A stretch of DNA of 10,382 bases. Source: Thermococci archaeon. GTDB taxonomy: Archaea > Hadarchaeota > B88-G9. Of this stretch, positions 6,586-10,214 are shown in pieces; position 1 is the stretch's first letter; each line of letters begins with the position of its first letter. A model generated the notes under the pieces. That model was not told the DNA's origin and made no database searches. It saw only the letters and a program-made list of their open reading frames with translations. The stretch spans positions 1-10,382 of the forward strand of contig QMUK01000040.1 of NCBI GenBank assembly GCA_003660555.1, given 5' to 3'. Both the position numbers and the translations under genes were made by a program.

Positions 6586-8730
6586 ATGAAGTTGAGTGAG
6601 CTAGTTAACCTAGGGTTTCCGAGGGAAGGTATCTCTCTTCTGATTGAAGACGGCATAGAGACTCTATACCCTCCTCAAGAGGAGGCAGTTAAGAAAATCT
6701 TGAGCAATAGGAATTTGCTTCTCAGTGTTCCTACAGCTAGTGGGAAAACTCTAGTTGCTGAGTTAGCAATAATGCGGAATTTAGGAGGAAAAACTCTTTA
6801 CATAGTCCCACTTAGGGCTTTAGCTAACGAGAAGTACGAGGAGTTTAAGAAATACGAGGCTTTAGGCTTGAAAGTGGCTCTTAGCACTGGGGAATACGAT
6901 TCTAAGGATGAATGGCTTGAGGATTACGACCTAATAATATGTACTTCTGAAAAAGCCGATTCTCTGTTGAGACATGGCGCTAGATGGATGGAAGAAGTAT
7001 CTCTTCTTATAGTAGACGAAATACACCTCATAAACGACTACTCTAGAGGGGCAACCCTTGAGATGGTTATTTCTAGAATGAGGAGAATCAATCCAGATGT
7101 CAGAATAATAGGGCTGAGTGCCACAATAGGGAATCCATCCGATCTCGCAGAGTGGTTGGATGCTGAACTAGTCTCTTCCGACTGGAGGCCCGTGGTGTTG
7201 AGAGAAGGCGTTCTTTTGGGACATGAGGTGTTCTTCGGCGACGGGGAAGTGAGGAGAGTGAATAAAATAAAGGGTGATTCAGCAATAGATTTAGCAGTAG
7301 ACGCAGTAATAGACGGAGGACAATCTCTAGTCTTCCTAGGGAGTAGGAGATCTGCAGAGAGCTTGGCGATTAAAATCTCTGAAGTTTTAAGAAAGTTTCT
7401 AGGGGAAGAAGAGTTAAACAATCTATCCAGAATTGCAGAGAGTATAGAGGAGGTAACTCAGGAGAGAACTGAGTTAGCAGAGAAACTAGCTAGGTGTGTG
7501 AGGGGAGGAGTCGCCTTTCATCACGCTGGATTGCATCCCGAGCACAGGAGAATAGTTGAGAAGAAGTTCAAATCCAGAGAAATAAAAGTGGTATGTGCTA
7601 CCCCTACTCTAGCTGCTGGCGTGAATTTACCGGCAAGGAGGGTCATAATAAGGGATTATAGGAGATACGACATGGGTTCCATGATTCCTATTCCGACAAT
7701 GGAGTATAAACAAATGGCGGGAAGAGCGGGTAGACCCAAATACGACGAATACGGAGAGGCAGTATTAATTTCTAAGAGCTTAAACGAGATGAACTTTCTC
7801 ATGAGTAGATATGTGCTAGGTAGAGTAGAAGAAATAAGCTCAAAGCTTTCTAGCCTCCCATCTCTTAGATTCCACGTTCTCTCTTCAATAGAATTTTGCA
7901 AGAACTTCGAGGAACTACTTGAGTTTTTCTCCTCGACCTTCCTTGGTCATGCCGTTGGAGTGAGGGAAATAGAGGACAAGGTATCCCAAGTGATAGAGTT
8001 CTTAATCGAGAATGGGTTCGTAATTGAACAGAACGATGAATACAAGCTTACAATCTTCGGGAAGAGAACTTCAGAGTTATATTTAGATCCAGTCAGTTCT
8101 CTAATAATTAGAGACGGGGCTGTCAAGGGAGAGGAAGAGAAAAAGGTCTCGGAAATTGGTTTGTTGCATTTAATATGTAGCACTCCAGACATGGAGAGAC
8201 TGAGCTTCTCTAAGAGAGACTACTTGCTAATGGAAGAAGTGGATAATGAACACTTACTAATTGATCCCCCAGATGAATTCGAGGACCCAATTGGATTTAA
8301 GGAATTTTTGAGGAGTCTGAAAACTGGACTTCTCCTAAAAGACTGGATAAAGGAAATGGGAGAGAACGAAATAACTAAGAAATACAGAATAGGGCCAGGA
8401 GACCTAAGGAGAATACTGGAGACTGCTGAATGGCTCCTCTACTCTACCAGAGAAATATCTAGGCTTTTCGAGCTAAGGAGAGTTCGAAAAATTTCAGAAG
8501 AACTTAGAAAAAGAGTAAAATATGGTGTGAAAAGGGAACTACTCCCATTGGTCTCTATAAGAGGTATAGGAAGGGTTAGAGCTAGAACTCTCTTCAATAA
8601 GGGCATTAGAAATAGAGAGGATTTGCTCAGACTAGGCGTCTCTGGTCTAGAGAGGATCGATGGGATTGGGAAGAAGTTGGCCGAGAAGATAATTAGGGAC
8701 CTAGAGAGCTCTGGAAATAGCAAGGGCTAA
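6586..8730 (+). CDS. hel308: Hel308-family superfamily 2 DNA helicase
   Basis: An ATP-dependent 3'-5' DNA helicase thought to act on stalled replication forks and in recombination in archaea. The 714-residue length is typical. Motifs in order: Q-motif YPPQEEA (28-34); Walker A PTASGKT (49-55); Walker B DEIH (144-147); motif III SATIGNP (178-184); motif IV VFLGSRRSAE; HHAGL (312-316); motif V CATPTLAAGVNLP (337-349); motif VI QMAGRAGRP (376-384). A winged-helix region and the ratchet domain (GPGDLRRILETAEWLLYS) follow. The C-terminal helix-hairpin-helix region (about 660-706) has two GIG turns, GIGRVRA and GIGKKLA. The ATG at 6586 is chosen from the promoter position and family N-terminus; starting at 6559 would add nine residues. 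All helicase motifs are intact. The last 30 nt overlap the convergent methyltransferase gene. Confidence 0.95.
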   Translation: MKLSELVNLGFPREGISLLIEDGIETLYPPQEEAVKKILSNRNLLLSVPTASGKTLVAELAIMRNLGGKTLYIVPLRALANEKYEEFKKYEALGLKVALSTGEYDSKDEWLEDYDLIICTSEKADSLLRHGARWMEEVSLLIVDEIHLINDYSRGATLEMVISRMRRINPDVRIIGLSATIGNPSDLAEWLDAELVSSDWRPVVLREGVLLGHEVFFGDGEVRRVNKIKGDSAIDLAVDAVIDGGQSLVFLGSRRSAESLAIKISEVLRKFLGEEELNNLSRIAESIEEVTQERTELAEKLARCVRGGVAFHHAGLHPEHRRIVEKKFKSREIKVVCATPTLAAGVNLPARRVIIRDYRRYDMGSMIPIPTMEYKQMAGRAGRPKYDEYGEAVLISKSLNEMNFLMSRYVLGRVEEISSKLSSLPSLRFHVLSSIEFCKNFEELLEFFSSTFLGHAVGVREIEDKVSQVIEFLIENGFVIEQNDEYKLTIFGKRTSELYLDPVSSLIIRDGAVKGEEEKKVSEIGLLHLICSTPDMERLSFSKRDYLLMEEVDNEHLLIDPPDEFEDPIGFKEFLRSLKTGLLLKDWIKEMGENEITKKYRIGPGDLRRILETAEWLLYSTREISRLFELRRVRKISEELRKRVKYGVKRELLPLVSIRGIGRVRARTLFNKGIRNREDLLRLGVSGLERIDGIGKKLAEKIIRDLESSGNSKG

Positions 8731-9489
8731 ATCTCTTGGGCACAATCCTGGAGATTCTCTTATCTTGTCCCAAAATTCTTCCAATATTGAAGCTATGTGT
8801 ATATATGACGCTCTAGACCCAGTTAGATGATCTTCCAGTTGAGTTATTGCCTCCTCTGGATAGAGGAAGAAGTCTCCCGAGATCTTGATCTCAGATATCT
8901 TTCCCTCTGAGACTGAACACCTGCATCTTATGAGGCCTCCCTTAGATTTATACTCGCTTACTCCCCTGTAGTCCAATTCCTTTTTTCCAATTGCTCCTAT
9001 GTCCTCAGTTCCTTCTAGGTCTAATTTTTCTATTTCTCTAAATCCCGAGTTACCCAGAAGACGAATTACCTCTTTCTCAGAGAGAGACTTCCTTAAAGCA
9101 GTGACTATGACCATTCCACCTGGGACTAGAACTCTCTTTATTTCTGAGATGAACCTGGCCTTATGGGGGACGTTCTGCAATACCGTTATGGATAAGACTG
9201 TATCGAAAGTCGAGTTCGGGTAGGGCATCCTCTCCACGTCTCCTCTGACTACTCTTTCCTTCGGACAGCTCAAAAGTAGCTTCTGAGAAATGTCTATCCC
9301 GAAATATTCCTCAATGTATTCCCTGAGGAAGCAAGGGCCGCATCCAGCATCTAGTACAATTCCTCTTAATAGCCTATCTCTCCTCACTAGTTTGAACTTC
9401 TCCAACTGTGTTTCTTTGTATCTCTTTACGTATACATCTGAACTCTCGTCGTATAACCTGTTTAGCTCGAGTTTTCTCTCTTCGTTCAA
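8701..9489 (-). CDS. Class I SAM methyltransferase fused to an LplB-like lipoate ligase C-terminal domain
   Basis: The product has 262 residues and two parts. Residues ~15-160 are a Rossmann-fold SAM methyltransferase: motif I VLDAGCGP (45-52), the acidic ribose-binding end of beta-2 in FGIDIS (63-68), RGDVERMPY (82-90), FDTVLSITVLQNV (95-107) and LVPGGMVIV (121-129), a small-molecule/UbiE-like pattern. Residues ~180-262 (KGGLIRCRCSV...ISGDFFLYPEEAI...LTG...LCPRDLALAISRAL) resemble the C-terminal accessory domain of lipoate-protein ligase A, a separate protein, LplB, in Thermoplasma. No LplA catalytic domain is present in the window. The start is a TTG at 9489; no ATG or GTG is available in frame before the upstream stop. 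A BRE/TATA-like element lies about 30 nt upstream. The methyl acceptor is unknown. Confidence 0.82.
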   Translation of the reverse strand: MNEERKLELNRLYDESSDVYVKRYKETQLEKFKLVRRDRLLRGIVLDAGCGPCFLREYIEEYFGIDISQKLLLSCPKERVVRGDVERMPYPNSTFDTVLSITVLQNVPHKARFISEIKRVLVPGGMVIVTALRKSLSEKEVIRLLGNSGFREIEKLDLEGTEDIGAIGKKELDYRGVSEYKSKGGLIRCRCSVSEGKISEIKISGDFFLYPEEAITQLEDHLTGSRASYIHIASILEEFWDKIRESPGLCPRDLALAISRAL

Positions 9490-9530: not shown

Positions 9531-9596
9531 TGTCTCTAGGGAGTCTAATCTACTTCCTATTGTCGATGGAGTGTGAGTAAATAAGTCGGGTGGATT

Positions 9597-10081
9597 TCAA
9601 TCTTCGCTCCATTCATTATAAACAAGTCTTATCAACTTGGTTTGATGATAAGTAGCCTTTCTTACCAAATCTTCCTTTTTCTATCATCCACGACTTCAGT
9701 AGGTGCTTGCTTTATTTTTGGGATCAAATGATCTCTCAAGAAATTACGAACAAACCAGCCATTTAAGCAAATAATCTTATCTCAGCTGTTTCTCCATTTT
9801 CAACCTCTCGAAGTTTAGCATATCTTAATGTCCCATGCAGTCTTTCAACGAACAATCGTTAGTTTCCCTGATCATCCGCGCTCCTCGAAAATTCGACTCT
9901 ATGATCTTTGTACTTACTGCGAATGACTTTCTTGAAACCTTTTTCATACGATTAAGCCATCTACAACTTTTCCTGTTTGTGGGAATATTTCCTCAGCTTC
10001 ATTTTCTATGAACTTGCCTATCAGTTCATATAGTTCCTGAGGCGTAAGTTTTTTAACGTTCAAGCTCGTAAACGAAAGCAT
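9597..10081 (-). pseudogene. Degenerate DDE transposase (IS remnant)
   Basis: The minus strand carries pieces of one transposase-like protein spread over different frames. Piece 1 (10081-9944) begins MLSFTSLNVKKLTPQELYEL and ends at a TGA. Piece 2 (9951-9763) includes YEKGFKKVIRSKYKDHRVEF, an in-frame TAA at 9861-9859, then FVERLHGTLRYAKLRE; ERLHGTLR (9846-9823) is the signature around the final catalytic Glu of many DDE transposases. Piece 3 (about 9772-9662) reads GWFVRNFLRDHLIPKIKQA and ends at a TAA. A further open piece (KATYHQTKLIRLVYNEW) runs to a TGA at 9597 and may or may not belong. At least two frameshifts and one stop make it inactive. The exact IS family cannot be assigned by eye. 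Confidence 0.65.
9628..9652. repeat. Inverted repeat CTTATCA / TGATAAG
   Basis: CTTATCA (9628-9634) and TGATAAG (9646-9652) form a 7-bp stem with an 11-nt loop; an alternative inner stem pairs ATCAA (9631-9635) with TTGAT (9642-9646). It lies in the 3' part of the transposase remnant. The same arm sequences recur, in opposite order, at the start of the ATPase gene at 10195. Confidence 0.4.
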
Positions 10082-10101
10082 GACCACAAGAGTTATGAAA
10101 T

Positions 10102-10162
10102 TTCGCTTAACTCCTACTTGATTACACGAATAAAAAGGTGCTGGAAATACTCGTTAAGCGAA
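10102..10162. repeat. 10-bp inverted repeat flanking a possible promoter
   Basis: TTCGCTTAAC (10102-10111) and its exact complement GTTAAGCGAA (10153-10162) are separated by 41 nt. The spacer holds an AT-rich GAATAAAAAGG (10128-10138) that could be a weak TATA box for the downstream ATPase gene, with a start site near the right arm. It could be an operator or an old IS end. Confidence 0.4.
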
Positions 10163-10194
10163 GTGCCCACTGTCGCCTCTAAGGAGGATAAAAT

Positions 10195-10214
10195 ATGATA
10201 AGGAAACTTATCAT
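10195..10214 (+). promoter_or_regulatory. Perfect hairpin covering the start codon of the ATPase gene
   Basis: ATGATAAG (10195-10202) pairs perfectly with CTTATCAT (10207-10214) around a GAAA tetraloop (10203-10206). The stem begins with the ATG itself while the Shine-Dalgarno at 10183-10187 stays outside. In RNA this would hide the start codon; a GNRA loop would stabilise it. It could tune translation, bind a protein as DNA, or be a chance effect of the codons. Confidence 0.5.

Follow-up and report, generated by a model that had tools for sequence, protein, structure and literature searches.

In archaeal bipartite lipoate-protein ligases, such as those of Thermoplasma acidophilum (PDB 3r07) and Thermococcus, the subunits LplA and LplB form a heterodimer (PMC10332631), and formation of lipoyl-adenylate requires both the LplA and the LplB domain (PMC6067878). 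The two domains can also be carried on one chain: in fused Lpl(AB), exemplified by Escherichia coli LplA, LplB is attached to LplA by its N-terminus, and in Streptomyces the order is permuted to Lpl(BA). An archaeal cluster combines LplA and LplB with LipS1 and LipS2 for lipoate assembly (PMC10332631), and in other lineages an LplA that lacks LplB can turn into a transferase of the LipM type (PMC10332631).

The window considered here is a stretch of 10,382 nucleotides, contig QMUK01000040.1 of the draft genome GCA_003660555.1 (Thermococci archaeon). The host is a deep-branching member of Hadarchaeota, the phylum that includes Hadarchaeum and Hodarchaeaceae. One open reading frame (ORF) of the window joins a complete class I S-adenosylmethionine (SAM) methyltransferase (MTase) end to end with a complete LplB (Table 1). 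It has no internal stop and is the only copy in the genome, and its domain matches go far beyond chance. The preliminary description, which had read the C-terminus as an LplB domain attached to a full class I MTase, is thus confirmed by an LplB profile (NF053749) above its cut-off, by the fold of T. acidophilum LplB (3r07_C) and by the Methyltransf_11 profile.

The ORF is an unusual domain arrangement around an already known subunit. As in the bipartite ligases, LplB agrees with profile and fold from end to end, and the genome has one separate LplA catalytic subunit and a GcvH; here, however, LplB is the C-terminal part of an MTase ORF, away from lplA. The attachment by its N-terminus to a folded domain recalls Lpl(AB), but the partner is not the LplA catalytic domain found in Lpl(AB) and Lpl(BA). 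Compared with the archaeal assembly cluster, the genome has LplA and LplB together with a probable LipS2 and a LipS1 homologue, although their genes are spread over several contigs.

Table 1. Positions of the fused ORF, its parts and its junction in the window, and of LplA-LplB-DUF116 proteins at other loci
Feature	Position	Strand	Remarks
Fused ORF	8701-9489	-	TTG start, 262 aa and stop; class I SAM methyltransferase - LplB
MTase domain	8980-9489	-	Residues 1-170; orthologue of the free ~180-aa Hadarchaeota MTase
A6 run	8981-8986	-	Just before the junction; read by eye
Codon 171, GAA (Glu)	8977-8979	-	Aligned with the stop codon of MTase orthologues; one base from TAA
LplB domain	8701-8976	-	Residues 172-262 (91 aa) and stop
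LplA-LplB-DUF116	L304:1116-2720	-	
LplA-LplB-DUF116	L155:375-1931	+	
LplA-LplB-DUF116	L305, L306, L307, L312, L313		

For the LplB half, residues 179-262 match NCBIfam NF053749 (LplB) at 70.4 bits (cut-off 65) over profile positions 2-86 of 86, and Pfam PF10437 (Lip_prot_lig_C) at 39.2 bits (cut-off 24). The T. acidophilum chain 3r07_C is also matched by sequence (phmmer, 9e-13). In an AlphaFold2 model, residues 173-262 have pLDDT values of about 90-97; the MTase half, with its shallow alignment, is poorly modelled. Superposing the model on 3r07_C with VIA-align gives Z 15.1 and an rmsd of 1.0 Å over 87 aligned residues, with model residues 172-260 on residues 1-87 of the chain, and Foldseek gives a TMt of 0.91 for the LplB part. 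Both comparisons proposed in the preliminary description, an HMM search of the C-terminal residues against lipoate ligase families and a structural match to T. acidophilum LplB, therefore bear it out. The domain keeps 16 of the 17 positions that are invariant in 11 relatives, and its 91 residues, counted from residue 172, are a length shared with many free LplBs.

In the N-terminal half, many SAM-MTase profiles find residues 45-135 (Methyltransf_11, 64.1 bits, E 1.9e-17), and the domain aligns over its full length with free Hadarchaeota orthologues at 28-38% identity. The gene neighbourhood of these orthologues, which are about 180 aa long, is conserved and contains proS, a PepQ-like peptidase, proline-pathway-like genes, nicotinate phosphoribosyltransferase (NAPRT), CoaD, CoaBC and pantoate kinase. 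In contrast to the copy described here, they are without an LplB tail in any relative; this copy has the Hel308 helicase gene as a neighbour, and in its motif I the usual GCGTG has become DAGCGPC, with cysteine in place of the last glycine (G53C). None of 11 aligned orthologues has a cysteine at that position. The invariant acidic residue D66 is kept, as is D84. Among otherwise-invariant positions, the MTase has lost 9 of 38, compared with 44 of 132 in LplA, 32 of 110 in LipS2 and 12 of 46 in GcvH of the same genome. Because its losses resemble those of these other genes, the MTase shows no sign of decay, and decay as an explanation for its changes can be ruled out. Identification as the malonyl-ACP methyltransferase BioC was rejected (TIGR02072, 41.1 bits against a cut-off of 184.95), as was UbiE, which like other named MTases scores far under its cut-off.

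The two halves meet with no real linker between them, because the free orthologues of the MTase stop at the position of K170 and free LplBs begin around residue 172, which leaves a single residue between two complete proteins. Residue 1 of 3r07_C also falls on residue 172. The C-terminal placing of LplB in the preliminary description stands, with a sharper boundary than was given there: about 90 residues, beginning at 172. A single base decides between a fusion and adjacent genes, and the single polypeptide hinges on a few bases at 8977-8986 in one genome. With one wrong base in the assembly, either GAA for TAA at codon 171 or an insertion or deletion in the A6 run, where one base more or less brings a stop soon after in the MTase frame and separates the genes, the locus would hold two adjacent or slightly overlapping genes, the MTase followed by lplB. 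LplB would then begin at the TTG of residue 172 (8976-8974), a possible start of its own, and function as usual. Such an arrangement fits a junction that lies exactly at the stop of the orthologues and the first residue of LplB, and it fits the common free length that this TTG yields. The same assembly also has a hydrogenase large-subunit-like gene in two frames (G000:C14, L204:2414-2929), with stops between them and two compensating indels; this broken gene is either a pseudogene or an assembly error, and thus indels or pseudogenes do occur in the assembly. Against a wrong base, however, the paired-match rule reveals no frameshift when applied to 120,639 bases of conserved coding sequence in the assembly, among them 80 homopolymers at least six bases long, and the remaining genes of the window appear intact. 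Nor does a Shine-Dalgarno-like site precede TTG172 at -16 to -3, whereas a loose test on 130 closely spaced downstream genes finds such a site ahead of a start within the first 25 codons in 110. We therefore consider adjacent genes unlikely, and judge that the fusion is probably real in the organism, in one reading frame.

Instead of the usual free LplB of about 90 aa beside lplA, this genome has LplB fused to the MTase on a different contig from lplA. The inventory agrees with what the preliminary description had predicted, a lone LplA and a GcvH with no free LplB: there is one LplA of 247 aa (G000:C1:50653-51240; PF21948, 171.9 bits), with no lplB beside its gene; one GcvH, within a gcvT-gcvH-gcvPA set; and, in the draft genome, no second LplB at E<=10 and no lipoyl domain besides GcvH. 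LipS2 precedes lplA and scores 256.2 bits, just below its cut-off of 270, and a LipS1 homologue on a separate contig is 42% identical to a profile-confirmed LipS1. In trees, the LplA of this genome falls near Thermoplasmatota with weak support, and its LplB, on a long branch, is left unplaced. The only known instance of the fusion is in this draft genome (1.30 Mb, 150 contigs, 91% complete), whose missing part could encode a free LplB.

A single set of LplA and LplB argues for the usual role of LplB as the second subunit of LplA. Since the genome has one copy of each subunit and one acceptor, action of the LplB tail in trans with LplA is the simplest reading. Lipoylation might instead proceed with LplA alone, as a LipM-like transferase, and LplB might have been recruited from it as a docking or regulatory module of the MTase. 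It would be in keeping with such recruitment that lplA is on another contig with no lplB at its side, and that transferases consisting of LplA only exist (PMC10332631), which makes the need for LplB uncertain. However, the domain has kept nearly all positions that are invariant in its relatives, and the genome has LplA, LipS2, the LipS1 homologue and GcvH, with LplB the only candidate partner of LplA. Recruitment away from lipoylation is thus hardly probable.

Relatives and wider searches bear on whether the MTase itself could have a part in lipoylation. LplB is present in 17 of 28 genomes of the phylum; apart from the copy in the window, it is a free protein of about 91 aa and, in G005, also joined to LplA, and most free copies adjoin lplA. 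Neighbours of free lplB in these relatives are lplA, lipS1, lipS2, gcvH and gcvPA, with the order lplB-lplA-lipS1-lipS2-gcvH-gcvPA in Hadarchaeum yellowstonense. In all other Hadarchaeota genomes searched, the MTase and LplB are encoded apart, and the MTase orthologue also occurs where LplA and LplB are both missing from the genome (for example G022, G024 and G026). Farther afield, an MTase of this kind is absent from fused and neighbouring frames at 80 LplB loci, kept out of 254 confirmed in 84,980 species genomes (the genome of the window was not among them). A survey of 394 archaeal genomes found LplB in 143; a subset of the matches was inspected, and no MTase-LplB fusion occurs among the unusual or long LplB frames examined. 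The long ones are LplA-LplB, LplA-LplB-DUF116 or LplB with short upstream open frames, mostly Thermococcus-like, in which no MTase-like sequence is seen by eye. Viral contigs gave one LplB match and only remote MTases, which served as rows in the alignments, and a narrow literature search found no published MTase-LplB fusion.

The preliminary description had suggested that the fusion may link methylation with lipoyl or octanoyl transfer. In a version of this idea, the MTase would act on a lipoylation substrate (GcvH, a lipoyl or octanoyl intermediate, or LplA) or regulate LplA through the tethered LplB. A covalent join would supply the two activities in equal amounts at the same place, and there is a weak resemblance to the BioC profile (41 bits, cut-off 185), which amounts to general MTase similarity. 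But MTase orthologues exist in genomes without lplA and lplB and belong to an unrelated gene cluster, and the survey shows no second fusion or adjacency. A role of this kind is very unlikely, and it is most improbable that the protein is a working bifunctional enzyme, with the MTase tied to the ligase through LplB and methylating a lipoylation substrate or controlling the ligase. The suggested link between methylation and acyl transfer accordingly lacks support, given parts that are apart in relatives. The use of LplB as a carrier-protein or acyl docking module fares no better, with no other inspected LplB joined to an MTase and the MTase lying beside CoA, NAD and proline genes. New chemistry from the fusion finds no support.

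Most likely, then, we are looking at an ordinary helper subunit, LplB, joined by chance to a neighbouring MTase. That the MTase and LplB are apart in relatives and that no other fusion is seen make service of LplB to LplA in trans the most likely role. The fuller account, in which the LplB tail acts in trans for LplA, the MTase is an unrelated passenger, and lplB was scattered and then joined by loss of a stop, we hold to be moderately likely; we infer the activity in trans, the independence of the MTase and the stop-loss origin from the comparisons above. The LplB tail would be the small subunit of a bipartite archaeal ligase and would act with the only LplA of the genome. Together they would activate octanoate or lipoate and load GcvH, the sole lipoyl acceptor found, and sulfur insertion would fall to LipS1 and LipS2. 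In this lineage the usual lplB-lplA-lipS1-lipS2-gcvH cluster may have been scattered, with lplB landing immediately after a conserved MTase gene unrelated to it and the frames joining when the stop codon between them was lost. The MTase would retain its own activity, with LplB merely carried at its C-terminus by way of the LplB N-terminus. Since LplB is attached to LplA by its N-terminus in Lpl(AB), it should in principle accommodate a partner there. The G53C change in motif I of the MTase counts against this account.

A real join would mean that LplB can work for LplA with an unrelated enzyme at its N-terminus, and that a further LplB arrangement exists beside the free and LplA-fused ones. 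The genome is also an example, from a deep branch of Hadarchaeota, of a lipoate assembly set whose genes are dispersed.

Several other features can be seen in the window and the surveys. The fused ORF and the Hel308 gene on the forward strand, assigned from its helicase domains, converge with a 30-bp overlap of their 3' ends (8701-8730). On the other side of the fused ORF, a stretch of about 650 bp (9540-10190) that has neither a plausible gene nor an Rfam match separates it from an AAA ATPase (RecF/OLD-like) gene that starts at 10195. In the phylum, the relative G021 has a strong GcvH match, and neither LplA nor LplB is matched there at the thresholds applied. Proteins of the LplA-LplB-DUF116 type, about 520-535 aa long, are found repeatedly, in several families of archaea and in one Dehalococcoidia genome; Pfam was run on two such proteins.
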